From positions 1-40,162 of the forward strand of contig CANRHD010000017.1 in the NCBI GenBank assembly GCA_947630285.1: a stretch of DNA of 40,162 nt, read 5' to 3'. Shown here piece by piece: positions 192 to 26,705 of the stretch. The stretch is from an uncultured Clostridia bacterium. Its GTDB lineage: Bacteria; Bacillota; Clostridia; Oscillospirales; Acutalibacteraceae. The notes beneath the pieces are model-generated. The model had not been told where the DNA came from and ran no database searches. It saw only the letters and a program-made list of their open reading frames with translations. Within the stretch, counting starts at the first letter, position 1; each line of letters opens with the position of its first letter. The position numbers were made by a program, and so were the translations under genes.

Positions 192-2315
192 ATGGGACGC
201 AGATTTTGCAATTTAACAACATCTTTATTGCTTATTGTATCAATTCTTTTTATCGGCACGGTACAGCTTTACGCCGCCGGCGCTTCCGACGCTACCGCAC
301 AGGACGCAAAAGCAAAAATCGCTTTTACCGATAAGGAAAAGGAATATATTTCATCGCACAAGTCAGTTAAAATAGGCTATGTTCAGGACAGGATACCTAT
401 TTCATTTAAAGATGAAAACGGTGAATTCAACGGCATTTCAAGATATATTTTTGACCGTGTTTCCGAGCTTTGCGGCATCGACTTTGAATATGCCGCTCTA
501 CCGGGCGGTGAGGTTACCTACGATGTGCTTTTAGACGGCGGTTACGACCTCGTTTCAAGCGTTGAATATAACGAGGAGAACCAAAAGGCCAAGGGAATAC
601 TTATAAGCAATCCCTATCTTTCCAGCAAAAAGGTCGTTGTTGCCCGAAAGGGGTTTATATTAAGCTACAATTCCCCTCTTTCCATTGCAATTTCAACCGG
701 CTCGCAAACTATTAAAAAGGTACTCGGCAAGGCTTACCCGAATTTTAAATTTGTAGACTACCCGTCAATCAACGCCTGCTTTGACGCCGTTAATTCGGGC
801 GAGGCGGATTTGCTTATGCAGAACCAATTTGTAGTTGAGTATTGGAAAGCAAAGCCCATATACGAAAACCTCAAGGTTATCCCGGTTCTCGGTCTGGACG
901 ACAGGCTGTGTTTTTCCGCTGTTGTGGCGTTCGGGGACAAAAAGGGCCCCTCTGCCGCAGACGGGCGCATTTTAATTGACATACTAAACAAGGTAATAGC
1001 CGCCATGCCCGAGGACGAGGTCGGCAACTATACCATACAGGGCGTTATGGAGAACCAGTACAAATATAATTTTTCTGATTTTATGTACCGTTACCGTTTT
1101 GCCGTAAGAACCTTTGCCACGCTCTTTATAGTAATAATGGTGCTGTTGTTCCTGCTTGTAAGGCTGAATTTACGCTATGCCGCAAACAAGGCCGACGCCA
1201 AGGTCAGGGGTCAGTTCCTAAACACTATGAGCCATGAAATCAGAACGCCGTTAAACGGTCTTGTCGGGCTCAATCACCTTATGGAAAACGAGCTTGACAA
1301 CAGCGAAAAGCTGGGTCAGCATATCAGGCAGTCGAATGTCACAGCAAAATACCTGCTTTCGCTTGTGGACGATATGCTCGATATGTCGAGCCTCCAGGAG
1401 GAGAACCTCAAGCTTGACGCCCACCCGATCAACCTAAAGCTTGTTATCGACACGATAAACTCGGTAACGCAGAACACTTTGCAGGAAAAGAAAATCAGGT
1501 ACTCGTTTGACTGCAATATAAATTGGCAATATATTGTTGCGGACGAGGCAAGAATACAGCAGGTTATTTTAAATCTGCTTGACAACGCAAGGAAATTTAC
1601 CCCCAAAGGCGGTATGGTGGATTTCAGCGTTAAACAGGAGCTTAAAAGAAATAACAGGGTGCTTACGACCGTCACCGTTTCCGATACGGGAGTCGGCATA
1701 GGTGAGGAATTTAAAAAGCATATATTTGACACCTTTGCCCGTGAGCTTGACACCGTTTCAAAGGGAAATCAGGGCACGGGTCTGGGGCTTCCCATATGCC
1801 GCCAGCTTGCCAAGCTTATGGGCGGAGATATAAGCTTTGAAAGCGAAAAAGGCAAGGGCAGTATTTTTACCTTTACATTTTACGCCGGGCTGTCGGACGC
1901 TCCGAAGTCCAATACCGATACCGAGACTCCCGAAAAGCCTGCCGCAGACTCCAAACGCATACTTGTCGCCGAGGACAACGAGCTTAACGGCGAAATAATG
2001 CTGGAGCTTCTCCGGGGCGAGGGGTACGAGGCAGAGCTTGCGCAGAACGGAAAAATCGCCGTAAATATGTTTTCACAGTCACAGCCGTATGAGTATTCGG
2101 TAATTCTTATGGACCTGCTTATGCCGGAAATGGACGGCTTTGAGGCGACGGAGAAGATACGGGCTCTTGACCGTCCCGACGCAAAAACGGTACGCATTTT
2201 CGCCTGTACCGCAAACTCCTCCGACTCGGACAAGAAAAGAGCCGCCGCATGCGGTATGAACGATTTTATCACGAAGCCCATTGACATTAAGGAGCTTTTT
2301 GAAAAGCTGAAATAG
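192..2315 (+). CDS. Hybrid sensor histidine kinase with periplasmic-binding-type sensor and receiver domain
   Basis: 707 aa. Order seen: signal peptide/TM (about 1-29), an extracellular family-3 solute-binding-like sensor (about 45-285, opening with VKIGYVQDRIPISF), a TM helix (about 298-325), HisKA with SHEIRTPLNG (phospho-acceptor His348), HATPase with N box LLDNARKF and G boxes DTGVGIG and GTGLGLP, then a C-terminal receiver (about 588-707) with ILMDLLMP (Asp641) and the TKP lysine. The layout resembles BvgS/EvgS, but with a single sensor domain and no HPt domain, so the phosphate should pass to a partner encoded elsewhere. A family-3 sensor usually binds amino acids or similar small ligands; the ligand here is unknown. 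The start at 192 has AAAGG upstream and a strong promoter. It is monocistronic and convergent with the next operon. Confidence 0.93.
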   Translation: MGRRFCNLTTSLLLIVSILFIGTVQLYAAGASDATAQDAKAKIAFTDKEKEYISSHKSVKIGYVQDRIPISFKDENGEFNGISRYIFDRVSELCGIDFEYAALPGGEVTYDVLLDGGYDLVSSVEYNEENQKAKGILISNPYLSSKKVVVARKGFILSYNSPLSIAISTGSQTIKKVLGKAYPNFKFVDYPSINACFDAVNSGEADLLMQNQFVVEYWKAKPIYENLKVIPVLGLDDRLCFSAVVAFGDKKGPSAADGRILIDILNKVIAAMPEDEVGNYTIQGVMENQYKYNFSDFMYRYRFAVRTFATLFIVIMVLLFLLVRLNLRYAANKADAKVRGQFLNTMSHEIRTPLNGLVGLNHLMENELDNSEKLGQHIRQSNVTAKYLLSLVDDMLDMSSLQEENLKLDAHPINLKLVIDTINSVTQNTLQEKKIRYSFDCNINWQYIVADEARIQQVILNLLDNARKFTPKGGMVDFSVKQELKRNNRVLTTVTVSDTGVGIGEEFKKHIFDTFARELDTVSKGNQGTGLGLPICRQLAKLMGGDISFESEKGKGSIFTFTFYAGLSDAPKSNTDTETPEKPAADSKRILVAEDNELNGEIMLELLRGEGYEAELAQNGKIAVNMFSQSQPYEYSVILMDLLMPEMDGFEATEKIRALDRPDAKTVRIFACTANSSDSDKKRAAACGMNDFITKPIDIKELFEKLK

Positions 2316-2337
2316 GCTTACAATTTAACAGAGCAAA

Positions 2338-2376
2338 AAGGTGGGGAAGCCGTTTGGCCGCCCCACCTTAATTTTT
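2338..2376. terminator. Bidirectional terminator between convergent kinase genes
   Basis: Stem AAGGTGGGG/CCCCACCTT (2338-2346 with 2361-2369). It is followed by AATTTTTTATTTT on the plus strand, and on the minus strand by a TTTTT run. It sits between the stops of the two convergent transcription units. Confidence 0.85.
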
Positions 2377-2387
2377 TATTTTGCAAA

Positions 2388-3662
2388 TTATTTAAACGCC
2401 TCTGCGCCCTGCTTTTTGGCCTCCTCTGTTCTGAGGCTGTCCATTATTTTAACACAGCCGGCGGCGTCCGTCTTTTTCCTGAGCAGATTTTCAAGAGCGG
2501 AAGCAACATCTTCCGCACTGTAGCCGACTATCTTTGACGCCGCTGTGGATACCCTTTCCCTTTCGGCTATTGAAGCCGCCGCATCCGTTACCATTTTGGA
2601 CTGTATATTTGCGGTTTCCCTGTTAAAGCACTTAACGGTAGAGATGCCGTCAAATGCGGCGTTGTAGTTTTCGGGCTCGGCGCAGAACTCCAAAAACTCA
2701 CGGGCAAGCTCAAGCTTATCGCCGTTCTTGTTGAGCATCATCATATTCAGGTTGCCGCCCTCGTATGTGCCGCCCTCAACCGTATTGAAGAACACGGGCA
2801 TTACGGCAAAGTCGTCAACGGTATATTTGCCGTCCTTTTCAAAGTCCGTATAGAACCAGGTGTCCCAGATAAATGTCATTACGGCCTTGCCCGAGCTTAA
2901 CGCAGGGCTTATATCAGACCAGCCGGTTTTAAGATAATTTGTCCCGAACCAGCCGTTGTCGGCGGCCTTTTCTATCCAGGCGGCCATATTCCTAACCTGC
3001 GGAATGTCGGAGTATTTTATCTCGTTATTATTGAGCTTTTCAAGCAGCTCCGGCTCGTCGGCAAAAACGGGGTCAAGCCCGAACTGCGCCATCCAGGTAC
3101 AGCCGTCCTGCGCCCAGCAAATAGGCGTCTGACCCATATCCGCAAGTGTTTGGCAGAGGGTGTCAAACTCCGCCTGCGTTGTTGCCGGCTCAAGGCCGAG
3201 ACTGTCAAGCAGGGTTTTGTTGTAATAACAGCCCGAAACGGAGCTTTCCCAAAACGGGAAGCCTATCAGGTTGCCCTGACTGTCAAGGCAGTATGCCTTT
3301 GCGCTGTCGGTAAGCTCCGAAACCCACTTTTCATCGTTAAGGTAATAAAAATTCTTTTCAACATCAAAGCGGTGGAGGTCGGAATTGTTGAAGTGCATAA
3401 GAATATCCGGCACATCGCCGTTTGCGATATTTTGTGAAGCCGTTGCCTCGAACTCAACATCTTCTATGGAAACAACTTTAATCTTATTGCCCGTTTTTTC
3501 CTCATAAAGCTTGAAAACAGCCGTCATATAGCTTTTTTCCATATCGCTTTTTTTGCCCATTATCGTAAGGGTTTTTCCACCCGAACAGGAGGTCAGCAAA
3601 AACGAGACAAGCAAAACAATCGACAAAATTAACGCTGTAATTTTTAAACAGTTTCTGCTCAT
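2388..3662 (-). CDS. ABC-type sugar solute-binding lipoprotein (family 1)
   Basis: 424 aa. The N-terminus is a lipoprotein signal with lipobox LTSC (Cys26), so the protein is tethered outside the membrane. The body has the usual family-1 features, including an N-terminal lobe with KLYEEKTGNKIKVV, a ligand cleft rich in Trp/Tyr, and GKAVMTFIWDTW in the second lobe, which suggests an oligosaccharide ligand. No permease or ATPase gene lies nearby. Its ATG overlaps the TGA of the upstream hybrid kinase (ATGA at 3659-3662), so the two are translationally coupled. This context suggests it presents ligand to the kinase rather than, or as well as, serving transport. Family call is firm; the sensing role is inferred. 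Confidence 0.88.
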   Translation of the reverse strand: MSRNCLKITALILSIVLLVSFLLTSCSGGKTLTIMGKKSDMEKSYMTAVFKLYEEKTGNKIKVVSIEDVEFEATASQNIANGDVPDILMHFNNSDLHRFDVEKNFYYLNDEKWVSELTDSAKAYCLDSQGNLIGFPFWESSVSGCYYNKTLLDSLGLEPATTQAEFDTLCQTLADMGQTPICWAQDGCTWMAQFGLDPVFADEPELLEKLNNNEIKYSDIPQVRNMAAWIEKAADNGWFGTNYLKTGWSDISPALSSGKAVMTFIWDTWFYTDFEKDGKYTVDDFAVMPVFFNTVEGGTYEGGNLNMMMLNKNGDKLELAREFLEFCAEPENYNAAFDGISTVKCFNRETANIQSKMVTDAAASIAERERVSTAASKIVGYSAEDVASALENLLRKKTDAAGCVKIMDSLRTEEAKKQGAEAFK

Positions 3663-6625
3663 TGCTCATTTTCCCCTTCCCCGTTATCCTGCGGTTTTCT
3701 TTTTGACAGAATTTCGCCGACAAGCTCCCTGACCTTGTCCATATTTACAGGCTTGGCGAGATGCCCGTCCATACCGGCGTCAATTGCGTTTCGCTTATCC
3801 TCGGCAAAGGTGTTCGCCGTCATAGCGACAATGGGTATCGTCTTTGCCTCGGGGTGATCGCTTTCACGGATTTGCCTTGTGGCCTCGTAGCCGTTCATTA
3901 CGGGCATTTGAACATCCATAAGTATCATATCGTACCGACCGGGTTCGCTGTTAAGGAACATTTCGACCGCTTTAAGACCGTTTACGGCGACATCGCATTT
4001 TGCGCCCTCCATGTCAAGCAGTTCGGTGAGGATTTCGGAATTTAACTCGTTATCCTCGGCAACAAGGAACAGTCTGCCGTTCATAACGCCCTCAAACGCC
4101 GAAGCGTCCGCCTCTTTCTCCTCGCTCTGTTCGGAAACAAACAGCGGCCTTATTATCTGCCAGAAAGTAGAAACGAAAAACGGCTTTGACATAAAGGCGT
4201 TGATGCCTGCCTCACGGGCCTCCTGCTCAATATCGCTCCAATCATAGGAGGTCAGCACAAGTATAGGTATGTCCATACCCAACTGCTCCCTTATCATACG
4301 GGCGGTTTTAACGCCGTCGCTTCCGGGCATTTTCCAGTCAAGGAGTATGACCTTATAACCGTCGCCCGAATTGTGCGCCCTTACCGCCTCTTTTACCGCC
4401 GACTCGCCGTCGGTGACATAGGAAACGCCCACGCCCGTATCCTTCATCATTTCACGGATACTCAGGCAAACTTCCTCCTCATCGTCGGCAATAAGCATTT
4501 TATTGACATTTTGGCGTATCCATTCCTCCTGCTTGGCGTCGCTGTCGGGCAGAGAGAAGGTAAGTTCAACTGTAAAGGTACTTCCCTTGCCAAGCTCGCT
4601 TTCAACGCTGATAACGCCGCCCATAAGGTCTACAAGGTTCTTTGTTATTGCCATACCGAGACCCGTACCCTGTATCTTGTTGGTTACGGAGTTAATTTCC
4701 CTGCTGAAAGGATTAAACACCTGCTTTTGGAACTCCTCGCTCATACCTATGCCGTTGTCGCAAACGGAGAACCTGAGCTTGGTATATTGGTCGGAGGTTC
4801 GGGGAAGCTCGCTTATTATAAATTCGATTTTTCCGCCCTCGGGCGTGTATTTGATTGCGTTTGAGAGAAGATTTATAAGTATCTGATTAAGCCTCAGCTT
4901 GTCGCCGAGTATCTGTTCGGGCGGTGCGCCCTGAACACGAATTGTAAAGCTTTGCTCCTTAGCCTTTGCCTGCGGAAGCAATATGATATTAAGCTCCTCA
5001 AGTATTGCGGGCAGGCTGAAGCAGTCGATATTAAGCGAGGTTTTTCCGCTTTCTATCTTGCTCATATCAAGAACATCGTTAATAAGGCTGAGCAGATGAT
5101 GGCTTGAAGCCATAATTTTGTGCGTATATTCACGAACCTTTTGAGCGTCGCTTGCGTCCTTTTCCAAAAGCGTGGAAAAGCCGACAATGGCGTTCATGGG
5201 CGTTCTTATATCGTGCGACATATTTGAAAGGAAATTACTCTTAGCCTCGTTTGCGCTTTTGGCGGCGTCAAGAGCCTCCTGCAATTTTTGGTTCATCTGC
5301 TGTTCCACGGTGCGGTCGGACATAACGATAACATACTTAATATCGTCCTGAACACGCATATGGTAAACTGTCATTCTGTACCAGCGGCGTTCGCCCGTGG
5401 TCTGGTGCATATATTCGTATTCCCAATACCTGCTTGAATTAATCGGGATCGCCTCAAGCTCCTCCTTGGGGATAACGCCGTTGTAGTTTAGGGTACACGC
5501 TTCGAGCACTTTGATATTGCTCCTTGCTTCTTCCGCATTAACGCCGATTAAGCGCTCAATATTCGGGCTGATGTAATCGACATGCTGGTCATGGGCGTCA
5601 AGCATCATAAATATATCGTCAACGCTGTTTGAAAGCACATTGAAAAGTATATCCCTGTACTGAAGCTCCAGCCTGTTTTTACGGGTCTGCTTTCTGTTAC
5701 GCAAAATTACAAGCGTAAGTATCGCAATACCTGCCAAAAGGAACACGACAACCAAAACATCAAAGGTTATCTGCTGAATATAAACAAGACCCTCGCTGAC
5801 TGCGCTCTGCGGAACTGCGCTCAAAAGCAAATAGTGCTTATAGCCGACGGGCTGGTACAAAATGCAGTAGCTCTCGCCGCCTATTTTGCATTGAAGCAGA
5901 CCCTCGGCAGAATTTTTCCAATCGTCCCTTATATCGTTAAGCGACTCCTCACTCAAATCCGAGCCTGCTTTTAAATAAGTGAAGAAATTGCCGAACACAC
6001 TGCCGCCCTCGTAGGTTGAGAGCAGAACGCTGCCGTCCGTTCTGAGGACAAAGCATTTGGCCTCGCCCGAAAAGGCGTTCACATTAAGCGAGCTTGACAG
6101 CTCCGCATTGTTGTAGCTGACGGCAAGGTAGCTGTAATCGCTCCCCTTGTATTTACCCTTTGAAACGGGGCGTGCAAATACGGTAATTTCCTGGCCGTTT
6201 GCAAGCTTTTCGCCGGCAATTACTGCCTCCTTTTTATTTGCAAGGCTGTCCCACTCCTCCTCCAAGAGCATTTCGCCCTTTTTGCCGTCAAGGGTGATAT
6301 AGGATTTATCATCGTCGATAAAATAAGCCTGCGAAAAATTCCAATACTGTTTTTTGCTGTCTATATATTCAAAAACGGTTTCGTCGTCACTGCCGACCGC
6401 CGCCATATATTCGTCACAGCCGTCAAGCATACCCCAGTTCCTCTGGACAAAGGAGCTGAAAGTGCGGTTGACCTGACCGTAAATTTCTTTTAGCTGTTTG
6501 GTGCTGTCGTCATAAATCCTGTGGGAGATAAAGTTGAAATAAACCACCGCTATAATTACGGCAGCGATTACAGCCGCAGAAATTAAGAATAGCGGTAATA
6601 TATTTTTAATCCGTTTTTTCAACAA
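3659..6625 (-). CDS. Hybrid histidine kinase with extracellular sensor, PAS and two receiver domains
   Basis: 988 aa. TM1 (about 14-36), an extracellular Cache-like sensor (about 37-290), TM2 (about 291-315), a PAS domain (about 330-445, VDYISPNIERLIG), HisKA with SHDIRTPMNA (His471), HATPase with NLLSNAIKYTPEGG, DNGIGMS and GTGLGMA, then two receivers (first with LLDWKMPG, second with LMDVQMPV), both with phosphorylatable Asp and conserved Lys. No HPt or DNA-binding output is present. The start is TTG (6625), or a second TTG three bases on, with AAGGGGTG upstream. It is the first gene of a two-gene operon with the overlapping solute-binding lipoprotein. The Cache call is from layout only and is weaker than the kinase call. 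Confidence 0.92.
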   Translation of the reverse strand: MLKKRIKNILPLFLISAAVIAAVIIAVVYFNFISHRIYDDSTKQLKEIYGQVNRTFSSFVQRNWGMLDGCDEYMAAVGSDDETVFEYIDSKKQYWNFSQAYFIDDDKSYITLDGKKGEMLLEEEWDSLANKKEAVIAGEKLANGQEITVFARPVSKGKYKGSDYSYLAVSYNNAELSSSLNVNAFSGEAKCFVLRTDGSVLLSTYEGGSVFGNFFTYLKAGSDLSEESLNDIRDDWKNSAEGLLQCKIGGESYCILYQPVGYKHYLLLSAVPQSAVSEGLVYIQQITFDVLVVVFLLAGIAILTLVILRNRKQTRKNRLELQYRDILFNVLSNSVDDIFMMLDAHDQHVDYISPNIERLIGVNAEEARSNIKVLEACTLNYNGVIPKEELEAIPINSSRYWEYEYMHQTTGERRWYRMTVYHMRVQDDIKYVIVMSDRTVEQQMNQKLQEALDAAKSANEAKSNFLSNMSHDIRTPMNAIVGFSTLLEKDASDAQKVREYTHKIMASSHHLLSLINDVLDMSKIESGKTSLNIDCFSLPAILEELNIILLPQAKAKEQSFTIRVQGAPPEQILGDKLRLNQILINLLSNAIKYTPEGGKIEFIISELPRTSDQYTKLRFSVCDNGIGMSEEFQKQVFNPFSREINSVTNKIQGTGLGMAITKNLVDLMGGVISVESELGKGSTFTVELTFSLPDSDAKQEEWIRQNVNKMLIADDEEEVCLSIREMMKDTGVGVSYVTDGESAVKEAVRAHNSGDGYKVILLDWKMPGSDGVKTARMIREQLGMDIPILVLTSYDWSDIEQEAREAGINAFMSKPFFVSTFWQIIRPLFVSEQSEEKEADASAFEGVMNGRLFLVAEDNELNSEILTELLDMEGAKCDVAVNGLKAVEMFLNSEPGRYDMILMDVQMPVMNGYEATRQIRESDHPEAKTIPIVAMTANTFAEDKRNAIDAGMDGHLAKPVNMDKVRELVGEILSKRKPQDNGEGENEQ

Positions 6626-6862: not shown

Positions 6863-7981
6863 TCAGCTCTGCGTCTGTTCTTCTTCCTTATCCTTTTTGC
6901 GTTTAAATACAAGCAGGAGTATGAAGAACAAGCTGACAAGCATTATACCTGCCGAAAGCCAAATATTTTCCGCAGTAAGCGCACCCATTACGGGTATTTT
7001 TATTGTGGGAACCTTGGCAGGCTTTTTGCCGCCGTTATCGGTCGGCTTTTTATCATTATTGTTGTTGTCGTTTTGAGTAGGTTTATTATCAACGGGCTTT
7101 TTCCCGTCGTCGGGAGTACCCTGAGTAATATACATACCCGTCTCGTCTTTATCCGTACCGCCCGAACCGTCCGGATCGTCCGTGCTTTCAAAGCCGCCTT
7201 CGGGCGGAATTGTCGGGTCGGTTAAATCGGGGTCAATGTCGGGGATACCGTCGCCGTTTTCATCGACAATTACAAAGTCAAGGTAAACCGTGTCGGTTCC
7301 CATGGGAACAACAACGAGCTGTGTCCCGTCGGGAAGCTGTTGTATGTCAACCTTATCGGCTTCGTCGGAATATTCAACAACAAATTCACAAGTGCCGAGC
7401 TTTTGACCGTCCTTAGTGACGGTAACGCTGTGGCGGCCCTCAGACAAATCATCTACAAAGTATCTGCCGTCTTTATCGGTTTTTGCCGTATAACTGCCAA
7501 AGTCAAAGCTCATATCGGCGTCCTTGACTTTTTCATCGCCGAGATATACGCAACCGCCCATATCGACCTTTAAACAGCTGTCGTTCGGGTCGGAGGCGCA
7601 GTCCTCAAACGCAAACTCGACATAGACATCTGTCGTAACGTCGGTAAGCGTCAAAGAGCCGTTGGCAAACTTGTCGGTGGCATCTTCGCCGTTTACAACG
7701 ATCTTGCTGATATGGTGATTTTTGCCGCAGATAACATCAAGGTCTATATCGCCGAACCTGCTGACAGTAATCTCGGTACCGTCGGGGCAGATTTTGCCGC
7801 CGAACATTATATAGCCGCCGTCGCTGTTATAGTGGACGGTTATTTTGTGCTTGGAGGGTACGCTTGCGGAAATTACCATTCCGCCGCCCTGCGAGCCCGG
7901 TTCGGGATCTGCGCAAAAAGCAGAAATGCTCATTGTCATTACAAGCAAAGCTGTTAAAGCAAAGCATAAAAACCTTTTCAA
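6863..7981 (-). CDS. Secreted, C-terminally membrane-anchored surface protein
   Basis: 372 aa from the TTG at 7981. The tracked GTG at 7990 abuts the Shine-Dalgarno AGAGGGG, whereas the TTG nine bases on has an 8-nt spacing and gives a standard MKR signal peptide ending in AFCA. Seen: a beta-rich N-terminal part (about 30-130), a carboxypeptidase-regulatory-like fold (TDKDGRYFVDDLSEG), an acidic Ca-binding-like stretch (DENGDGIPDIDPD), a Pro/Asp/Asn/Lys-rich linker, then KIPVMGALTAENIW, a TM helix (about 340-359) and a basic tail KRKKDK. The end has the layout of a sortase signal, but IPVMG is not LPxTG. Last gene of the operon; probably the membrane or wall anchor of the secreted proteins encoded upstream. 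Function unknown. Confidence 0.75.
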   Translation of the reverse strand: MKRFLCFALTALLVMTMSISAFCADPEPGSQGGGMVISASVPSKHKITVHYNSDGGYIMFGGKICPDGTEITVSRFGDIDLDVICGKNHHISKIVVNGEDATDKFANGSLTLTDVTTDVYVEFAFEDCASDPNDSCLKVDMGGCVYLGDEKVKDADMSFDFGSYTAKTDKDGRYFVDDLSEGRHSVTVTKDGQKLGTCEFVVEYSDEADKVDIQQLPDGTQLVVVPMGTDTVYLDFVIVDENGDGIPDIDPDLTDPTIPPEGGFESTDDPDGSGGTDKDETGMYITQGTPDDGKKPVDNKPTQNDNNNNDKKPTDNGGKKPAKVPTIKIPVMGALTAENIWLSAGIMLVSLFFILLLVFKRKKDKEEEQTQS

Positions 7982-8029
7982 CGAAATCACCCCTCTTTAC
8001 TAAGTATTTTTTATGCTAAGGGGTAAGCG

Positions 8030-8524
8030 TCAGGGCGCTTTATACTCAACCGTGTAGGTTAAAGTGGTCTGATAAACCGCAACGAGAACCCCTGCGAAGC
8101 TCGGAACCTGTACCGAAACAGTTTTTTCGGCGCCTTTGGGGAGTGCATCGGTATTTATTGCGCCAAATTCAAATGTTTCATCAAGACCCGTGGGCGTATA
8201 TGCAAGCCCTGCCGGCCAGTCTTTATTTTTAAGCCTTTTGGTTGAGTCTTCATCAGTAACCCTAACGGTAATTTTTGCGCCGAGCTGTAACTGTGAAGTG
8301 ACCTTCGGGTTCATATCCTTTTGCTCGGTGTCGCCCCATTCGATTGAAAGGTCTGCCGGGATTTGAACCGAGTAGGTTTCGTCCGAAGTTTTGGTAATGG
8401 TTTGAACAACGACATCCGAATTTTTCGGGTCGGAGTCCTGCGTTATGGGATTATCTGCAAATGCGGTGAGTCCGAGGGAGGCAAGCATAGCAACCGTAAG
8501 GACAACGGATATTAATTTTTTCAT
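8030..8524 (-). CDS. Small secreted protein, paralogue family member 5
   Basis: 164 aa, ATG start with GGAGGT 7 nt upstream. Signal peptide ends at AFA (about residue 23). It carries the family signature: IPADLSIEWGD in the first half, an ITVRVTDED strand mid-way, and terminal strand VYQTTLTYTV. Closest to member 4 (8555-9070), with which it shares VQIPAD, YTPTG and the identical VYQTTLTYTV, so the two look like a recent tandem duplication. No catalytic motif and no cysteine; a predicted beta-sandwich is inference. It lies 30 bp after member 4. The layout recalls a WxL domain whose tryptophan motifs are missing. Confidence 0.72.
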   Translation of the reverse strand: MKKLISVVLTVAMLASLGLTAFADNPITQDSDPKNSDVVVQTITKTSDETYSVQIPADLSIEWGDTEQKDMNPKVTSQLQLGAKITVRVTDEDSTKRLKNKDWPAGLAYTPTGLDETFEFGAINTDALPKGAEKTVSVQVPSFAGVLVAVYQTTLTYTVEYKAP

Positions 8525-8554
8525 CCTTTTACCTCCGTGAAATCAGGAAATCAA

Positions 8555-9070
8555 TTATGCTACAGCTACAGTATATGTAAGTGTGGTCTGATAAACCGAA
8601 ACTGCGATGCCTTCCCAAGCTTCTTTAGCGATTGTAAGAGTAACTGCGGGATCAGCGTTTGCCCAAGATGTAACCTCTGTAGCCGAGTCGCCTACGCCAT
8701 TAACAGCTTCAAAAGTATTTGCTGCAAAGCCTGTGGGTGTGAAAGCGATTGTATCGTCGCCGCCATTTTGGTCGGTCATCTTGTTGGAGTCGCTGTCGGT
8801 AACGGTAACGGTAAGGGTTTTGCCCTCTGCAAGCTGGCTTGCAACCTTATAGTTCATATCAACGGATTCTGTGCCCCAGGCAATATCCTTGTCGGCAGGA
8901 ATCTGAACTACATACCATTCTGCGGCGTCAAGTGAGCTTTCGTCAACCTTAACTACTGCTGTGCCTGATGTTGCTGTTGTAATATCTGTGGGTGAAGCTG
9001 CTGCGAAAACGGGAACACAAATTGCGGAAATCATTAAAACTGCGAGAACAAGTGAAATAATCTTTTTCAT
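8555..9070 (-). CDS. Small secreted protein, paralogue family member 4
   Basis: 171 aa, ATG with AAGGAG upstream. Signal peptide MKKIISLVLAVLM... with cleavage near VFA-A. Signature elements: VQIPADKDIAWGTE, TLTVTVTDSDSNKM, then AWEGIAVSVYQTTLTYTV at the C-terminus. Sister of member 5. Extracellular, with no membrane anchor and no catalytic residues visible. Probably a structural or wall-associated subunit, by analogy with the C-terminal domain of the 1859-aa protein of the same operon; that role is inferred. Confidence 0.72.
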   Translation of the reverse strand: MKKIISLVLAVLMISAICVPVFAAASPTDITTATSGTAVVKVDESSLDAAEWYVVQIPADKDIAWGTESVDMNYKVASQLAEGKTLTVTVTDSDSNKMTDQNGGDDTIAFTPTGFAANTFEAVNGVGDSATEVTSWANADPAVTLTIAKEAWEGIAVSVYQTTLTYTVAVA

Positions 9071-9114
9071 GTATTTACTCCTTATTAAATGATTTTTTTA
9101 ATTAATAAATTTAA

Positions 9115-9600
9115 TTAAGCGCTGACAAGTTGTGATGTAAATGTGAGAGTGTCCTTGTATTCGTCAACGGGAACCTTTGCCCAGTTTTCCGCCGGAATAC
9201 CAATGTTGAGAGTCTTGGTTGTACCTTCTGCGATTACGGGACCGTCCTGAATAGAGGTGTCGCCGGTAAGCGTGTAATCGAGGGTGTAATCATCCTGATT
9301 GTCGGAAGACATTTTGTTGTCTGCGGAAGCAACATCAAGCTTAAGCTGATGGTCCCAAGTAAGCTGAGCCTGAACGGTGTACTCAATATCGGTTGATTCT
9401 TTTTCCCAAGCGATTGTGGTTTCAGCCGGATAAGTAACCGTGTAATTTTCTGCGGAGGTGTGGCCGTCCTCTTTTAAGGTAGAGGTTTTAACTACGGCTT
9501 CGCCGGAAGTTTTGCCTGTGTTAAGTTCATCGGCAAAAGCCATAACGCTCAACGAGAAAACCATGGCTATTGCCAAAACAATGGACAAGAGTTTTTTCAT
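9115..9600 (-). CDS. Small secreted protein, paralogue family member 3
   Basis: 161 aa, ATG with GGGAGGAA upstream. Signal peptide ends at AFA (about residue 23). Signature elements: VTYPAETTIAWEKE, LKLDVASADNKM, and ENWAKVPVDEYKDTLTFT near the C-terminus. Closest to member 2 (9618-10127), sharing YPAxTT, TxxxYTxxxxL and the YxDxLTF end. No other recognised domain. The gene sits 17 bp after member 2 and 44 bp before member 4 in the same operon. Confidence 0.72.
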   Translation of the reverse strand: MKKLLSIVLAIAMVFSLSVMAFADELNTGKTSGEAVVKTSTLKEDGHTSAENYTVTYPAETTIAWEKESTDIEYTVQAQLTWDHQLKLDVASADNKMSSDNQDDYTLDYTLTGDTSIQDGPVIAEGTTKTLNIGIPAENWAKVPVDEYKDTLTFTSQLVSA

Positions 9601-9617
9601 AGTAATTTCCTCCCAAA

Positions 9618-10127
9618 TTAAGATACTGTAGCTTCAAATGTAAGTATGTCGGAATACTGGCCTACGGGCGCTGCGTCCCACTGAGCCTGCGGAATGTCAA
9701 CATAAACAGTCTTTTCCGCACTGGCTATCTCATTAAGAGTGAGGTCAGCAAGCGGAGCCGAGCCTGCCGCATCGTCCTTTAAGGTGTACTCAAGGCCGTA
9801 ATCGGCGTTATCGGCGAGGGTCATTTTTGACTTTTCCGAAGTAACGCTTACGGTAAGCTTACTGCCGACAGACAAATGGGTCTTTGCGGTGTAAGTAATC
9901 TTTGCGTCAGCAACGGTGTCGCCCCAGTTAAATGTTGTTTTGGCAGGGTAATTAACCTCAAAGCTGGCAGCAGAAGTGCCGTCTGATTTTGTTTCGGAGG
10001 TGAGAATCTCTGATGTACCTTTGGTTGCACCGGCGGCGTCGGGTAATTTCTTATCCTCCGCAAATGCAGGTACAGCCAATGAAAGAACCATCGCCAATGC
10101 CAAAACAAGCGCCAAAGTCTTTTTCAC
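9618..10127 (-). CDS. Small secreted protein, paralogue family member 2
   Basis: 169 aa. GTG start at 10127; the upstream AAAGGAA is rather far (about 11 nt). Signal peptide MKKTLALVLALAMVLS... with cleavage after AFA. Signature elements: VNYPAKTTFNWGDT, KLTVSVTSEKSKMT, and AQWDAAPVGQYSDILTFE near the end. No cysteine and no membrane anchor. It follows member 1 by 18 bp. Function unknown; it is a likely extracellular structural protein. Confidence 0.72.
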   Translation of the reverse strand: MKKTLALVLALAMVLSLAVPAFAEDKKLPDAAGATKGTSEILTSETKSDGTSAASFEVNYPAKTTFNWGDTVADAKITYTAKTHLSVGSKLTVSVTSEKSKMTLADNADYGLEYTLKDDAAGSAPLADLTLNEIASAEKTVYVDIPQAQWDAAPVGQYSDILTFEATVS

Positions 10128-10145
10128 AGTTCATTCATTCCTTTC

Positions 10146-10607
10146 TTATTTATTTACATAAGCTAAAGTGAAGGTGAGAGTGTCGTTATACTCACCTGCC
10201 GTGGCCGCTTCCCAATCCGCCTCGGTGACGGAAACCGCAAGCGGAAATACGGAAGTATCGTTTACCCGGGTAAACTCTATTGAGTCCGCACCGCTGAGCG
10301 TGTAGGGAATTTTTCCCCCGTCGCTGACAAGCGCACAGTCATTTTCTGACGCAACGGAAATCGTAACTTTCTTATCTAAGGCGATAATCATCTTGCTTGC
10401 GCTTATTTCGCCCAATGTGAAATTGCTTTCACCGTATGGAATTTCGATATCCGCAGGATAAGCTATTTCAATGAGCTCCGAGCGTTCTGCGCTGATTTCC
10501 ATTGAACCGCTTGTAGTTGCCGGAGAAAGGGTACCGGCGGAAACAGTAAATAAGCAGGAGAGAATTACAACCGTTGCCGCAACAAGTACCGAAATAAATT
10601 TCTTCAT
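10146..10607 (-). CDS. Small secreted protein, paralogue family member 1
   Basis: 153 aa from the ATG at 10607. The first ATG at 10613 lies only one or two bases after AAAGGAG, so the second ATG (7-nt spacing, MKKFIS) is preferred. Signal peptide ends near VSA. Signature: IAYPADIEIPYGES (Tyr in place of Trp), VTISVASEND, and ADWEAATAGEYNDTLTFT at the C-terminus. It follows the 1859-aa gene by about 65 bp. The C-terminal AGEYNDTLTFT also recalls spore-coat-U/fimbrial beta-strand endings, which is suggestive only. Confidence 0.72.
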   Translation of the reverse strand: MKKFISVLVAATVVILSCLFTVSAGTLSPATTSGSMEISAERSELIEIAYPADIEIPYGESNFTLGEISASKMIIALDKKVTISVASENDCALVSDGGKIPYTLSGADSIEFTRVNDTSVFPLAVSVTEADWEAATAGEYNDTLTFTLAYVNK

Positions 10608-10672
10608 TGACATTCTCCTTTACTTTAATATTTATATATACAGGTTAAGGTTTAACCCGTTTATACCGTTTA

Positions 10673-13600
10673 TCAGCCGCTTCCGGGGGTGTATTCCGCC
10701 GTAAAGGTCAGCGTCCTGTCAATATAGCTGTTTACATAGGATTGGTTCCACTGGTTGTCGTCTACCCAAATATTGATGGGATAGTCGTTATTTGTATACG
10801 CCCCGGTGCCGTTTACGGTAACCTTGCTGAAGGCGGTGTAAGTATCCGTATCGCCGTTGCCGACCTTGTATTGTATTGTCGGAAGCGGAGCAGGTGCGGA
10901 AACGCCTCTGGGAAGCTTAGTTGTATCAAGGCTCATGGTGTAGTCGTTATCGCCTGACAAATCAAGGCTTAACGAACCGTCCGTGTAGAGCGCACTTATA
11001 ATATTGACATTCTGGGCCTCCGTCGCCTTGGTCTTAAACGGAACTTCTATGCTTGCAGGGAAGCTGATTGCGAAGTATGTTTCCGACGAGTTAATCATTA
11101 CGGGTATATCCAGCGTTGTTACCGCAACGGGTTCAATATTGTTGCCATCGTAATCGGTAAGCGTGCCTTTGTTATACGCCTCAATATCGTCCGAGTCGAA
11201 AACATCAACGAAGATGTGGCCGAGGAAGGTAGAGCCTATCGGAATATCGGAAGCCGTGCTTTCAAGCCGAACCTCCATATTCTTTAAGTAATTGGTACGG
11301 GCAGGATCTGTTGCGCTGTACCTGTTTGTAAATGTTCCTCCGCCCTCGCCCGTTGTGATGTAATCGCTGTAGTAGAAGTTGTCGGCCTGCATGGTCTTGC
11401 CGTCAAGGAGGTCAACCTTCATTGTGATGGGTTCCGACATCGTAGGGCCGATAATCTGCTGCATTTGAAGGTCGGAACGGACACGAAGCGAAACATTGTG
11501 ATTAAGACGGGTCCAAACATGGGCAAGGTTAATGGTGTGCGTTATGGCAGAGCCTATGTCGCTGAAGACATAACCTCTTGAGGTGACATCTGCCGCACCC
11601 GAAGCGCTTGAAGCGCTCAAACGAACCTCCGCCGAGGGGAACGGCATGAGCATGTGCAGGTATTCGTTATACATGGGATCAATCGCCATGAAACGCTGTT
11701 TAAACGCCTCATACTGACGGATAAGATACTCAATTTCATTGAGCTCATCGGCGGTTAAGTACTGACCCCTGCTTACCTTGTCGGTAATATCCTGGTGCGC
11801 CTCGTGCGTCATATCAACATAATACTTGATACCGCCGGGCAAGCCGGTATAAGTGATTGTTTTATTACCGATCTTGTGCGTCGCCTCGTACTCCTTGCCC
11901 GTGGAGACATCGGTAACATGCCTTGTGCGTGCATTGATGTAAACATTTATCAATGCGTCCGCCATTAAATCCGTTTTGGCGTGTGTGGCGGTCGGAGAAT
12001 TTGAATTGACAAGCATGGTCTTTGCGAATATCGACATGTAGTAATAGTCCAAAATCGCCTGGCCTACGCCGGGATCAAGCTCGTCGGTATAGTGACCGTC
12101 CTCTACAGTATAGGTCTTTAAGGTCTTCATCTGAAGCTCCTTGGGAATATCGTAGCCGTCGAGCGTTTGCGTCTGCGTGGGATAAAGGTCAATAACCTTG
12201 TCGTAGAAGGTCTGGATATTCTCACGGTCGCTTATCAGTTCCTTTATTCTGAGCGCTGTCTTATAGGCGTTGATAAGCTCGGTGTAACGGCCGTCATGCT
12301 CTAATTGATAGGCTCTGCGCTGTGCAAAGCTCAATCTCATATAGCCCTTTTCGTAAGCGTCTATCGCCTTTTGGATATTTTCATCGTCCGGACCGGATAC
12401 GCCGAAGAAATCGTACTTGATGGTTGCGGTGGCGTAATCGTAAACATCTTCGCTTATTCGGTTATCTTGGGTGCATTTATCGCCGGATTTAAACCCTGAG
12501 GGAAGCGCATCGACAGCGCCCTTAAGAGCCATGGTATCGCTGTAAACGGACGCCCAGTCCTCCGTTGTGATTAAGTTGTCGTAATCGCCGTAAAGCTTTA
12601 GGTAATCGTGCGTGGGGTTATAATCGGTTCTGTCCGCATCGTCGTAGCCCTCGGCATAGGCAAGAGCTGCCTTAACATCGGGCAAGGTCTTCTGATAATC
12701 GGAAAGCGCATCATACAGAGCCTTGGCATTGTCGTAATCCGATATAAACTGTGCCTTGCCGGAATGGGCGTCAAGCGAATATACCGCCTGCGCAAACGCC
12801 GTGGCGTCGTCGGTCTGAACGGCAAAGTATTTATCGAGGTCATTAACCTCGGAAACATAGGCGTTGTCGCTTATGAGCTCTGCGCTCGGGTCGGCGGAAG
12901 CTCTGCCGGTAACGGACGGGTCATAGGTAAAGCCCATGCCGTCAACGGTTACGCTCTCGCCGATATTGGTGGTATCGTCAGACCAGAAAGCAACATGCAC
13001 ACGCTTAATTGTCAACTGGTCAAGAACATTGTCAAGCCTGTCGCCTGCGCTGTTGCGGAATTTTGAAAGCGGAATACGCAGGAAGCCCTTGTAGTATTGC
13101 AGGGTGTTCGACATATCCATATCGTTGGGGGCGATTATACTGCAATCGTCGCCGCTGTAGCCTGCGTTGATGGGAACTTCGACCCAGTCGCCGTCATCAT
13201 TTAGCATCCAAATTCTGTCCTGCGAAGCGTTGCCCGTGGCGAAATAGAATACCTCGTCCGTGCCGCCCCTGTCCACGATGAACTGGAGGTTCATGGAAAC
13301 ATCTTTAACATGCGAATAGTCAACATACATTACAAATGAGTTCGCCCAGTTTCCGCCGTAACGGGTGTTGTCGTTGGCGCTGGTGCCGTCCGAGCTCCTG
13401 TCGTTCAACTGAATTGCGGAGAGGTCAAGCCCCGGCAGGTTGGAAAAGCTATCGGCCGTTCTGCCCTGATAGGATACGGAAATAACATTGTAATGGCCTG
13501 TGGGGTCGCCGTCGAAGTTTACGCTTGCGCCCTTAGAGCCGTCGAAGCCGTTTGCGGTAATCTGTGCGCTGACTCTTGAGAAGTAATTGCCGTTAGTAAA

Positions 13601-16252
13601 GTTACCGTAGCTTCCGTCGCCCGTATCCGAAGCCGGGTTATAGGCTCTGGGGAACCAGCCGTTTGCATCGCCCTTTGTGCCTACAATCGCAGCCGCATCT
13701 TCGCCGTAAACCGTAAAGCTGCCTACATTGTTTCTGTCGATGCTCTTTGAGCCGGGGTTCCAAATATTGTTGCCATCGTTATAATATCTGAAAGCAGTTT
13801 CATTCAAATAGTATCTGCTTTCAAAGTTATTGAACGGGATATAGGGATATGCGCCTATGGAGTGTCCGGCCTTTATATCGTTACCGACCATCATGCGGTA
13901 AATCTGTAGGAATTTTGACTCCGAACCGTCGCCGATAAGGTCAAGCTTACCTATGTCGAAGCTCTGGTAAAGTCCCATAAGCTCAATAACCTCGGACTTA
14001 ATGGTATCGGAGGTCATATCAAGGAAATCGGGGTCGGGAAGCAGCTCAACACGCTGTTCAAACAGCAGAGCCGCCTGATAATAGGTTGAACCGTCTGTCG
14101 AACCGAGATACTTACTTAAGAATTCCTTGGCGGCCTTGTACTTGTTATACTCGTCGGGGTACTGCCTGCCGAGCCATTCAAGGTTTTGATCCACCGTATC
14201 ATACGGGAAGCTGTCTTTATATGTATCAACGGCATTATCAATAAATCTGATTGTGTCGTAGTCGAGCAAGGACGGAACATCGCCGAGGTATTCGTCGATG
14301 AAATTCGCTATGGCTACAGGTATCTGCGAGGTTCTGTCGTAGTAGATACCGACCTTGTAGCCACGGTCGTTAGCGAATTTACCGGATTCTGTCGGGAACT
14401 GAACGGGTGCGCTTTCAAGAACCGCACCTGTATCGGTTTCGTAATTGCTGTCCGAGTTGGCGTCCGCCTGTCGCATAAAGATTATGCGGTCAATATCGAA
14501 CGAGTTGTTGACGGAATCTGCGGACCAGCCCTCAACCTCAAAGCCTGCGCCGATAAGGTCTTCTATAGCATATGTAGCCGTATCGTCACGGGTAATATTA
14601 TAGGTCATGGTATTGTCGCCGTTATTGCTGATGCTTGCCTTAGTGCCCTCCTGAAGCATATAACCCATACCGCCGTAACGGTCATTACCGATTGTCGGAC
14701 TGTAAACCGTAAATCTGTTTTGGATAAGCAAACACTTTGTAACGGGAGTGCCTATCTTATTTACGGGAACCTTAAAAACATCTCTTGAATATGTCGGTTC
14801 CTTATACAAATTCCTTGTATTGTCGCCAAATGCTCCGTTTGAAGGAGCGTTAAGGAACAGCATTGTTGCTCTTTCTGCGTCCATTACGCTGCCGTCAGCC
14901 TGTGTTACATGTATAGTGCTTGGCGCAACGCCTGTATTAAGTACATTGGTCTGCAAGAACATATGCTGACCGCAGTATGTCATCTGTCCGCTTTCACTTT
15001 TGGTATAGTTATTAGCGCCCCAATCGTTGTCAGCAGTGATATACTGGGTTTCCTGAGCAACGAAGTATTCAAGCGGAATACGGATAAATCCGCGGTAGCC
15101 GCCGAAATTGAGAAGGCAGCCGTCGGTCATGGTGGTTTCTTCCCAAAGACCTGCTTCGTCCTGAAAATATATACCGCCCTTAACGCCGGCATTTGCGCCG
15201 CCGGCCGCCTTTGTGGAATAGGCTACATGACCGTAATCGGAAAGCGAACCATCGTCCGTATGGTCACGCCAAATCTGACGGTATTTTTCGTTAGCTCTTA
15301 AATTGAAAGATATTTTATCGAATTGAACATCACGGAAGTCTACATAGAACCAAACTTCCTCTGCGCTCTCAAAATTGTAGTGGCCGCGGCTCCATGTGGT
15401 GGTAAAGCTGAACGGAGTTCCCGTAGAATTACCGCTTATCCAGAAGTGCATGGAGTTAGAGTTGTCACAGCCCATTTCGGGGAATTTACCGTCAATGTTA
15501 ATGCCTGCCGTACCGCTTTCTGTTCCGTAATAGTCAGCGCCGTTTCTTAATCCCTTGCCGTCTGTGGAAAGTTCATAACCGGCAACTTTTGTATCCTCGG
15601 TATATCTTTCCTCAAACCTTAACATTTCACGGGCAATCCAGTTTTCATCGGGTGAAAAGTCGCCGGTAAGGTTATAGTAGGGTGTGTCGTTAAGAACCGT
15701 GTGGATAGTCTCACTCGTCCAGTACTCGTTATCCACGGCGGTTACGCCTATATCGTATATGGTGTTTGTCTTGAAGCCGCCGTCCTCTTCGCCCAAATGG
15801 ACAGCTTTTTCAACATCTTCCGCCTTGATCGTAATCTGACGGGCATAGTCGCCCATATCATTCTGTACGACATTTGCAAGAGGATAATACATCTCGAGAA
15901 TGGGGTTCTTGTTGGTTTGACCGTCCTCAATCTCGGTAAGGGTAACTATGTAACCCATCATTTTAACGGGCGTTGCAGGAGTGGACGGGTCGCCGTCTTT
16001 AAAGTCTACGGAGAATGCCCTCGGGAAATAGACATCTATGCTGTTGTCGGCATTAAGTACCGCCGAGAACATTATTTCCTTTGCGTCCTTCTTGGTAGCA
16101 CCGTCAGGGTCCAAAGACCAATAAGGTGTTGGGTCAAATTCGCCCGGTTCAACTATGGCCGCCTGCGTCATCATTATAGGCAGCGAAGTAATTACCATTA
16201 CAAAGGAAAGAAATACCGAAAGCACTCTCTTTGGTATCCTTTTGCTTTTCAT
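10673..16252 (-). CDS. Giant secreted modular surface protein (1859 aa)
   Basis: Signal peptide (about 1-32, ending near TQA). Two similar modules follow: about 230-420 and about 880-1100. Each has a beta-rich carbohydrate-binding-like core with an FYVDF/MYVDY strand and later YRGFIRIPLEYF (near 387) or YKGFLRIPLSKF (near 1057). Between and after them are helical stretches (LSDYQKTLPDVKAALAYAEG, resembling FIVAR-like spacers). The last about 150 residues carry the signature shared with the five small proteins encoded downstream (FPASIEVPFKTK, then NQWNQSYVNSYIDRTLTFT). There is no membrane anchor and no sortase motif, so retention is probably non-covalent through that C-terminal domain. No glycosidase active site was recognised. 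Second gene of the operon, 27 bp after the membrane protein. Role inferred: adhesin or glycan-binding scaffold. Confidence 0.8.
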   Translation of the reverse strand: MKSKRIPKRVLSVFLSFVMVITSLPIMMTQAAIVEPGEFDPTPYWSLDPDGATKKDAKEIMFSAVLNADNSIDVYFPRAFSVDFKDGDPSTPATPVKMMGYIVTLTEIEDGQTNKNPILEMYYPLANVVQNDMGDYARQITIKAEDVEKAVHLGEEDGGFKTNTIYDIGVTAVDNEYWTSETIHTVLNDTPYYNLTGDFSPDENWIAREMLRFEERYTEDTKVAGYELSTDGKGLRNGADYYGTESGTAGINIDGKFPEMGCDNSNSMHFWISGNSTGTPFSFTTTWSRGHYNFESAEEVWFYVDFRDVQFDKISFNLRANEKYRQIWRDHTDDGSLSDYGHVAYSTKAAGGANAGVKGGIYFQDEAGLWEETTMTDGCLLNFGGYRGFIRIPLEYFVAQETQYITADNDWGANNYTKSESGQMTYCGQHMFLQTNVLNTGVAPSTIHVTQADGSVMDAERATMLFLNAPSNGAFGDNTRNLYKEPTYSRDVFKVPVNKIGTPVTKCLLIQNRFTVYSPTIGNDRYGGMGYMLQEGTKASISNNGDNTMTYNITRDDTATYAIEDLIGAGFEVEGWSADSVNNSFDIDRIIFMRQADANSDSNYETDTGAVLESAPVQFPTESGKFANDRGYKVGIYYDRTSQIPVAIANFIDEYLGDVPSLLDYDTIRFIDNAVDTYKDSFPYDTVDQNLEWLGRQYPDEYNKYKAAKEFLSKYLGSTDGSTYYQAALLFEQRVELLPDPDFLDMTSDTIKSEVIELMGLYQSFDIGKLDLIGDGSESKFLQIYRMMVGNDIKAGHSIGAYPYIPFNNFESRYYLNETAFRYYNDGNNIWNPGSKSIDRNNVGSFTVYGEDAAAIVGTKGDANGWFPRAYNPASDTGDGSYGNFTNGNYFSRVSAQITANGFDGSKGASVNFDGDPTGHYNVISVSYQGRTADSFSNLPGLDLSAIQLNDRSSDGTSANDNTRYGGNWANSFVMYVDYSHVKDVSMNLQFIVDRGGTDEVFYFATGNASQDRIWMLNDDGDWVEVPINAGYSGDDCSIIAPNDMDMSNTLQYYKGFLRIPLSKFRNSAGDRLDNVLDQLTIKRVHVAFWSDDTTNIGESVTVDGMGFTYDPSVTGRASADPSAELISDNAYVSEVNDLDKYFAVQTDDATAFAQAVYSLDAHSGKAQFISDYDNAKALYDALSDYQKTLPDVKAALAYAEGYDDADRTDYNPTHDYLKLYGDYDNLITTEDWASVYSDTMALKGAVDALPSGFKSGDKCTQDNRISEDVYDYATATIKYDFFGVSGPDDENIQKAIDAYEKGYMRLSFAQRRAYQLEHDGRYTELINAYKTALRIKELISDRENIQTFYDKVIDLYPTQTQTLDGYDIPKELQMKTLKTYTVEDGHYTDELDPGVGQAILDYYYMSIFAKTMLVNSNSPTATHAKTDLMADALINVYINARTRHVTDVSTGKEYEATHKIGNKTITYTGLPGGIKYYVDMTHEAHQDITDKVSRGQYLTADELNEIEYLIRQYEAFKQRFMAIDPMYNEYLHMLMPFPSAEVRLSASSASGAADVTSRGYVFSDIGSAITHTINLAHVWTRLNHNVSLRVRSDLQMQQIIGPTMSEPITMKVDLLDGKTMQADNFYYSDYITTGEGGGTFTNRYSATDPARTNYLKNMEVRLESTASDIPIGSTFLGHIFVDVFDSDDIEAYNKGTLTDYDGNNIEPVAVTTLDIPVMINSSETYFAISFPASIEVPFKTKATEAQNVNIISALYTDGSLSLDLSGDNDYTMSLDTTKLPRGVSAPAPLPTIQYKVGNGDTDTYTAFSKVTVNGTGAYTNNDYPINIWVDDNQWNQSYVNSYIDRTLTFTAEYTPGSG

Positions 16253-16279: not shown

Positions 16280-17107
16280 TTATTCCGCAATAATTGCAGT
16301 GGATATTACCATATTGTTCAGCGGAGTGCGTGCCTTATCGTAAGTGTAGGGCTGTTCCATAACAAGACCCTTGTATTCGCCGGCGTCAAGCGCACGGTTA
16401 AGGTCGAACTCCGATATCGAATAACCCGGTCTGACCAATCCGGATTTATAAATCTGCTCATCGCCGTCGTCGATTTTTTTATTGTTGTTATTGTCAATAT
16501 ACACCGTGAATTCCATAAAGCATAAGTCGTTGTTTTTGTCGGAATTGGTTAAAATGAAATTCTGATGTACCTGACCTGCCTTTAAGTGCATTTCGGGTAT
16601 GCCGATGATAGTTACATTTTTGGAGGCGACATCGGCCTTTTCGGGTAAATTAAGCTTACCGAAGCCCTCCTCCTGCTCGCCGGCAAGTTCGCCGTAGGGC
16701 TTTGTGGTTTCCGGCTCCTTATCGGCATTGGCCTTTATTGCGTAAGTTATTCCGGCAACAATGCCTGCCAAAGCCAAAAGACCCAATACTATATACAATA
16801 TAATAAGAGCCGTAATATCCTTTTTAACGGCTATGAAAGTGCCGTTTTCAAGCTCGGCATAGCCGATAACCTTTTTATTTGCGGCAGAGCGAACCATATA
16901 TATTGGCTCGCTGACGGAATTGACGGATAAATTGCCGATTATTTCATTATCCTTACCGTGGCCGAGCTGACCCACTACCCTTATGCCGCCGCCCGGGAAC
17001 AGGGATTTCATCTGCTTTGCGGTGTAATAACCCACAGAAAAGCCTGTTTTTGAATTTCGGTAAACCGCCTGATAGTTGTTGTCGTTTTTCAAAATAAAAT
17101 CTGCCAA
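16280..17107 (-). CDS. Single-pass membrane protein heading the surface operon
   Basis: 275 aa, TTG start with AGAGGGTG upstream. No signal peptide: residues 1-97 are a soluble domain expected in the cytoplasm, 99-124 form one TM helix, and 125-275 an extracellular domain containing a Ca-binding-like stretch (DNNNNKKIDDGDE) and an end AGEYKGLVMEQPY...LNNM. The extracellular part resembles single-TM proteins found beside secreted beta-sandwich proteins in other Clostridia, from memory and not verified. First gene of the operon. It may be the inner anchor or the assembly/sensing partner of the secreted proteins. Function unknown. Confidence 0.75.
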   Translation of the reverse strand: MADFILKNDNNYQAVYRNSKTGFSVGYYTAKQMKSLFPGGGIRVVGQLGHGKDNEIIGNLSVNSVSEPIYMVRSAANKKVIGYAELENGTFIAVKKDITALIILYIVLGLLALAGIVAGITYAIKANADKEPETTKPYGELAGEQEEGFGKLNLPEKADVASKNVTIIGIPEMHLKAGQVHQNFILTNSDKNNDLCFMEFTVYIDNNNNKKIDDGDEQIYKSGLVRPGYSISEFDLNRALDAGEYKGLVMEQPYTYDKARTPLNNMVISTAIIAE

Positions 17108-17224: not shown

Positions 17225-17254
17225 ATTATATAACAAGAGGCTAACTATTGTCAA
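17225..17254 (-). promoter_or_regulatory. Surface-operon promoter P3 (proximal)
   Basis: TTGACA (17254-17249), 18-bp spacer, TATAAT (17230-17225). Transcription from here leaves a leader of about 110 nt before the TTG at 17107. The leader contains a hairpin CGGTAA/TTACCG (near 17193-17208). Confidence 0.75.
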
Positions 17255-18473: not shown

Positions 18474-18549
18474 TGGTGATCCACCGGAGATTCGAACTCC
18501 GGACACCTTGATTAAAAGTCAAGTGCTCTGCCAACTGAGCTAGTGGATC
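18474..18549 (-). tRNA. tRNA-Lys (UUU)
   Basis: 76 nt including encoded CCA. Acceptor GATCCAC pairs with GTGGATC, D-arm TAGCTCAGTTGGCAGAGC, anticodon stem CTTGA/TCAAG with loop CTTTTAA (anticodon TTT), T-arm CCGGAGTTCGAATCTCCGG. It lies 36 bp after secG with no T-rich terminator in between; a hairpin at 18556-18573 could be a processing site. Confidence 0.97.
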
Positions 18550-26685: not shown

Positions 26686-26705
26686 AAAAAATACTCCTTT
26701 CAAAA

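Follow-up and report, generated by a model that had tools for sequence, protein, structure and literature searches.

An operon of Candidatus Fimenecus with six copies of one secreted domain: a candidate cell-surface adhesion complex

An operon built around one secreted domain

The window analysed here is the whole contig C17 (CANRHD010000017.1; 40,162 bases) of an uncultured Clostridia bacterium, whose genome of 2.03 Mb is 99% complete. Its minus strand carries an operon of eight genes that runs from position 17107 to 6863, with gaps of 17–59 bases between the genes, and in which one domain occurs six times. The open reading frames (ORFs), whose coordinates were checked, follow in the order anchor, giant, five small domain copies and second anchored protein. 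The anchor (16280–17107, 275 aa), the core partner of the module, has an N-terminal part, one transmembrane helix and, after the helix, an immunoglobulin (Ig)-like ectodomain. The giant (10673–16252, 1859 aa) is a secreted protein with two large N-terminal regions, a middle part and a C-terminal copy of the domain. Small secreted proteins 1 (10146–10613, 155 aa), 2 (9618–10127, 169 aa), 3 (9115–9600, 161 aa), 4 (8555–9070, 171 aa) and 5 (8030–8524, 164 aa) follow, and the last gene (6863–7990, 375 aa) encodes a signal peptide, beta domains, a low-complexity linker and a C-terminal transmembrane helix. Helices and signal peptides of the two anchored proteins were judged by eye. The initial annotation had the small-protein ORFs in place and spoke of a single transmembrane-anchored protein; there are two, one at each end, and the one that opens the operon had been missed. 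Upstream of the first gene, at 17225–17254 on the minus strand, lies a sigma-70-type promoter match (TTGACA, 18 nt, TATAAT), the sole 12/12 match among 26 promoter-like sites found against 19.2 expected by shuffling.

The five small proteins (8030–10613) and residues ~1699–1856 of the giant (10685–11158) are copies of one homologous domain, as had been proposed, and this was confirmed by Smith-Waterman comparisons with 300 shuffles per pair and by profiles. Mature sequences were used because the signal peptides had made an early profile match other secreted proteins of the genome. The ten pairs of small proteins gave z values of 7.8–24.8, which none of the 300 shuffles reached in any pair, and the giant's C-terminus matched small protein 1 with a z of 10.8 (0/300). 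Its similarity to the copies at 8030, 8555, 9115 and 9618 was weaker (z 4.2, 3.0, 4.9 and 1.7, values reached by 1, 1, 0 and 27 of the 300 shuffles). The two highest values belonged to the pairs 8030/8555 (z 24.8) and 9115/9618 (z 22.8), the very pairs that had been singled out as products of successive duplication, a view that the comparison supports. In a tree of 117 copies, each close pair sits in a clade that also holds copies from sister species; since both members of each pair occur there, the duplications are old. The N-terminal signature described earlier is present, and is better written as Y-x-V-[TS]-[IYF]-P-A-x(3)-[IV]-x-W, with the proline in 102 and the tryptophan in 99 of the 104 copies (of the 117) that were aligned. 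In the small proteins the last strand of the domain is also the end of the chain.

The giant's two N-terminal regions, at about residues 180–660 (14273–15715) and 790–1115 (12908–13885), share a conserved motif block that is evident at the family level (hhalign E 8.9e-11 over 43 columns) and weak pairwise within single proteins (z 0.2–5.4 in 16 giants, 1.0 in that of the window); the middle part looks helical by eye. A profile search found the C-terminal domain copy in every one of the genus's giants for which the fetched contig includes the 3′ end (17/17). Fifteen of these had helped to build the profile, and the two that had not (loci L057 and L059) scored E values of about 1e-25. Some giants have a weak penultimate copy in addition (L059, E 1.2e-6; L050, E 7e-5).

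The same operon was sought in other Clostridia, as had been suggested, and its gene order is conserved within Candidatus Fimenecus. The giant was found in its own genome and 17/35 congeners, and in 0/23 genomes of the order's other families, in a survey where this genus alone stood for its family. A scan of named genomes gave 19 loci, including Candidatus Fimenecus excrementigallinarum, Ca. F. excrementavium and metagenome assemblies with yak and water deer caecum in their titles; every named record of the operon comes from a metagenome bin or an uncultured isolate. Gene order was followed in the loci fetched from 17 relatives and in the window. The anchor gene precedes the giant in 16/16 loci where the contig extends far enough, and the second anchored protein stands last in 15/16, the exception being L054, with ten small copies and a different gene in the last place. 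There (G016:C53) the tenth copy is followed by a 327-aa protein that, by eye, presumably resembles a family 26 glycoside hydrolase. Among the matches listed, including those naming Fimenecus, no published account of the operon or experiment on it was found.

The copies fall into position-specific classes. Across 17 operons there are 102 small copies, 5–10 per complete operon, and the copy next to the giant (small protein 1 in the window) forms one side of a branch in 17/17 operons (ultrafast bootstrap 97, SH-like approximate likelihood-ratio test (SH-aLRT) 80), values which, with few alignment columns, are rough according to the tool. Of the last copies, 11/17 share one clade with four middle copies. 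The middle copies, to whose class small proteins 2 and 3 belong, multiply within lineages.

The window was also compared with locus L046 of a sister species, and two tracts proved to be 95–100% identical in 150-base windows. One (14439–15691) covers about residues 187–604 of the giant, and the other (8797–9578) lies over small proteins 3 and 4. Outside these tracts the synonymous difference was 0.47–0.68 per gene, i.e., about half or more of the sites in most genes. The tracts mark a recent exchange between species, which took in subunits as well as the putative binding region of the giant; such exchange is common for surface antigens. The ratio of nonsynonymous to synonymous change against the sister species was 0.13–0.26 in seven of the eight genes and 0.55 for 8555–9070; these values are rough because synonymous change is high.

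Predicted folds, family searches and known surface systems

Small protein 3 was modelled with AlphaFold2 (mean predicted local distance difference test score, pLDDT, 97), and the 11 best rows of a Foldseek search with the model were all pilins of chaperone-usher pili, at modest scores. The small proteins are thereby predicted to have the fold that characterizes the subunits of these pili. The predicted fold of the anchor ectodomain resembles PapD-like domains, alongside other Ig-like folds. Below the pilins, at Foldseek ranks 12, 14, 15, 17 and 18, came cohesin modules (probability 0.33–0.54), and the top VIA-align rows of the anchor included GbpA and a porphyran-binding module, which would suit a secreted scaffold for polysaccharide capture, where plant or mucus glycans would be bound by the N-terminal regions of the giant, with the small domains as cohesin-like or carbohydrate-binding modules. 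The giant's two block-sharing regions, which by eye look like beta domains that may serve in binding, are consistent with such a role. However, the five cohesin alignments had root-mean-square deviations of 17–19 and TM-scores of about 0.2, no carbohydrate-binding module, cohesin or dockerin family was among the Pfam matches, and we regard a capture scaffold as improbable.

Searches by sequence placed the proteins in no described family convincingly, a strong match to a well-studied one having been named beforehand as grounds for abandoning the idea of a new system. WxL membership was ruled out, in agreement with the initial annotation: PF13731 had 0 matches in the genome (the control, Lactococcus lactis, was positive) and none in the operon proteins at E values up to 5, and hhalign aligned the domain with WxL in the last strand only, with non-significant E values of 0.1 and 0.019, next to 0.043 for a control comparison of the domain with the anchor family. 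The anchor had no Pfam match to DUF916 (WxLIP_PGBD, PF06030; hhalign E 0.22). SCPU was matched by 2/101 domain members at E values up to 0.01 (best 2.9e-4); in the same members DUF4245 was matched by four, and the best E value of DUF1616 equalled that of SCPU. Compared with consensus sequences, SCPU gave E 0.0073 for the genus, E 0.067 for the wider set, behind FixG_C at 5.2e-5, and no match for subunit 1. As these matches are weak, membership was rejected and SCPU kept as a lead only. The same standing was given to the fimbrial model StkG (NCBIfam), matched by one of 51 hand-chosen rows (E 1.3e-4). When the PDB was searched by sequence with profiles of the domain, the anchor and the giant, nothing significant came back, and weak rows such as CsuE (E 1.3) and FimC (E 0.83) were no more than hints. 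There were 0 genome matches by sequence to the usher (PF00577) or to the PapD-type chaperone (PF00345, PapD_N), for both of which the Escherichia coli control was positive, and no Pfam match to TasA or camelysin in the five small proteins at E values up to 5 or in 101 subunits at up to 0.01.

Sortase-based assembly fared no better. The small proteins have no sorting signals, and no sortase lies in the cluster, the three sortase genes of the genome being close together on another contig (C15:47500-50788). The second anchored protein, with a CarboxypepD_reg match below the cut-off (E 1.4e-5), has a tail that is sortase-like and degenerate throughout the genus (IPVMGA in the window), and membrane anchoring is for this reason likelier than sortase anchoring; in four relatives outside the genus the protein ends in clearer, TG-type tails (QTGD-, QTGE- or ETGD-like).

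The layout had been likened to that of WxL gene clusters, and here the parallel holds part for part. According to PMC1534035, a csc/WxL cluster comprises a membrane-anchored DUF916 protein, one to four small WxL proteins, a large one that carries the WxL domain at its C-terminus, and an LPxTG protein of small size, and csc genes were reported there in 2006 to be absent from clostridia. The operon likewise has an anchored Ig-like protein, small one-domain proteins, a large protein ending in the same domain and a further anchored protein, and in both domains the last strand is of the type Y-x-x-x-[IL]-x-[WFY]-[TS]. It differs in having neither a PF13731 nor a DUF916 match nor a significant profile comparison, in the anchor's helix, which stands before the ectodomain and in CscA after it, and in its 5–10 small copies per complete operon. 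The four-part composition of CscA (DUF916-DUF3324, the WxLIP protein), CscB, CscC and CscD (PMC1534035), together with the prediction in PMC10599100 that WxLIP completes the WxL sandwich with a strand, favors a csc-like display platform, on which the small proteins and the giant would bind one to one, unpolymerised, to anchored proteins or the wall, and the copies would diversify the surface. Against it, no sequence relation to WxL or DUF916 was detectable, the best folds are those of pilins, and the position-specific classes and the number of copies fit an ordered assembly better. A display platform of this kind is conceivable, and we lean somewhat away from it.

Archaic chaperone-usher pili (Csu, with CsuA/B, CsuE and the chaperone CsuC) share with the operon the predicted pilin fold of the small proteins, an adhesin-like protein with a C-terminal pilin-like domain and a second Ig-like protein that resembles the chaperone. 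Here, in contrast, there is no usher and no PapD_N match, the chaperone-like protein is membrane-tethered and has a single domain, and the host, like Clostridia in general, is monoderm. In the TasA/TapA and camelysin fibres of Bacillus, too, the subunits are Gram-positive beta sandwiches that have an Ig-like protein as their partner in assembly. The operon differs in its lack of a family match, its giant adhesin-like protein and its position-specific subunit classes; for TapA-TasA, PMC10151520 gives strand complementation as the demonstrated mechanism. Since the csc layout comes without sequence support, and the pilin fold without usher or PapD_N, the operon was filed under neither csc/WxL nor chaperone-usher systems; it would work like a csc cluster and possibly like an usherless pilus.

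The two-gene core outside the genus

Beyond Candidatus Fimenecus, the anchor and a domain gene behind it recur as a two-gene core. The domain was found in 16/294 other genomes of an order sample, mostly with one match per genome, and in 11/397 genomes of a phylum sample; the anchor ectodomain occurred in 45/294 of the former. Co-occurrence was scored on 44 fetched loci rather than on every match, with an anchor alignment of 23 of the 28 anchor rows then known. Of 24 loci selected by the domain, 16 had an adjoining anchor gene, with the domain downstream in 15 and upstream in one (L114); in the other eight no anchor was seen, and some of these are cut by contig ends. Among 20 loci selected by the anchor, nine had a downstream domain gene (L208 marginal, L201 with an ORF between), and these were nine of the 11 strongest anchors. 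The nine weaker anchors had no domain gene by profile, which leaves two readings, a diverged partner or a broader anchor family. This set was not fully blind, because two of the genomes had domain matches elsewhere.

Fusions of the domain to RCC1 propeller repeats, GLUG motifs or beta-helix repeats occur in other genomes (loci L112, L111 and L114), a display pattern with a constant docking domain and a variable business end. These fusions, like the many loci outside the genus with a single domain copy beside the anchor, would also be expected of the csc-like platform described above. At three further loci (L205, L209 and L210; genomes G043 and G203), remote anchor-family genes have as their neighbour a secreted protein that bears the motif GTGS[IV]TGNVTINGSI, and at L209 and L210 there are also genes close by that by eye are ParA/ParB-like; these pairs are possibly a mobile-element version of the anchor-domain pair.

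The single match in most other domain-bearing genomes of the order also weighs against the suggestion, made in the initial annotation, of a self-assembling surface layer or a general cell-wall-binding domain. Several secreted copies, a tightly spaced operon and a strong promoter match would suit such a layer. Nevertheless, searches of the operon proteins brought up no SLH or comparable anchoring domain within the thresholds applied, nor did those of 16 giants at E values up to 0.1, and the predicted fold points to pilin-like subunits. We regard this reading as very improbable. Of that earlier interpretation, the duplication, the WxL-like layout and the absence of the WxL family itself stood, and the surface layer did not.

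Proposed assembly, flanking genes and significance

Taken with the predicted folds, the operon may encode a cell-surface adhesion complex or short fibre made of pilin-fold subunits, a giant adhesin and a membrane-tethered, chaperone-like anchor, a reading to which we give an even chance. The subunits would be exported by Sec and, most likely, received at the membrane by the anchor, whose single PapD-like Ig domain would hold or chaperone them and lend a strand that completes or stabilises their sandwich; WxLIP is predicted to act in this way on WxL, and TapA does so on TasA. They would then move on into an ordered complex or fibre, possibly by strand exchange. The giant would stand at the outer end, with its N-terminal regions binding ligand and its C-terminal pilin-like domain docked to the subunits next to subunit 1, which would act as the adaptor, the middle copies as the shaft and the second anchored protein (6863–7990) as a second, envelope-anchored base. 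We infer every contact, including that between subunit and anchor, as well as the donated or exchanged strand, the polymer and the binding of a ligand. The conserved N-terminal motif of the domain is alternating, and also occurs internally in the giant, which bears on whether it could serve as a free N-terminal donor strand. The fold scores, from two models, are modest.

A bolder version would have the tethered PapD-like protein hand its pilin-fold subunits straight to a growing fibre that is held together by strand exchange and tipped by the giant as adhesin, i.e., a chaperone-pilin pathway of monoderm Clostridia that needs neither usher nor sortase. Its minimal form, with a tethered chaperone and a single subunit, would occur across the order to which the genus belongs (relatives' records: Oscillospiraceae, Ruminococcaceae) and in a few lineages elsewhere in the phylum. 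We put this forward tentatively, at rather less than even confidence.

The operon is followed, 237 bases downstream, by a hybrid histidine kinase gene. The stretch 192–6625 holds two such kinases, which contain receiver domains, and a solute-binding protein of the extracellular kind; the kinase at 3659–6625 was found next to the operon in a single relative, the nearest (G001, loci L046 and L063), and was ruled out as a member of the system, and the binding protein was found beside the operon in no relative. On the other side lies a tRNA-Lys gene (18474–18549, minus strand). Over this gene and its flank the sequence is 78% identical to an unannotated faecal phage record of 5.1 kb; as the sole phage record matched covers just these, a phage origin was rejected. 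Further on, a T-box leader (26723–26944), probably asparagine-responsive, stands upstream of a class II tRNA-synthetase gene (D/K/N type, 25315–26703) and that of the aspartate-ammonia ligase AsnA (24288–25298).

Apart from sortase pili, S-layers and type IV pili, little is known of how adhesins are displayed in monoderm gut Clostridia. If the proposed assembly is true, the two-gene core of a pilin-like and a PapD-like protein would extend assembly by strand complementation beyond TasA/TapA of Bacillus and the Gram-negatives. The operon offers a named, testable pair of partners in gut bacteria, together with a giant protein, the proposed adhesin, in which species are exchanging the putative binding region, and it hints at an undescribed route by which a Gram-positive cell may build an adhesive surface structure.

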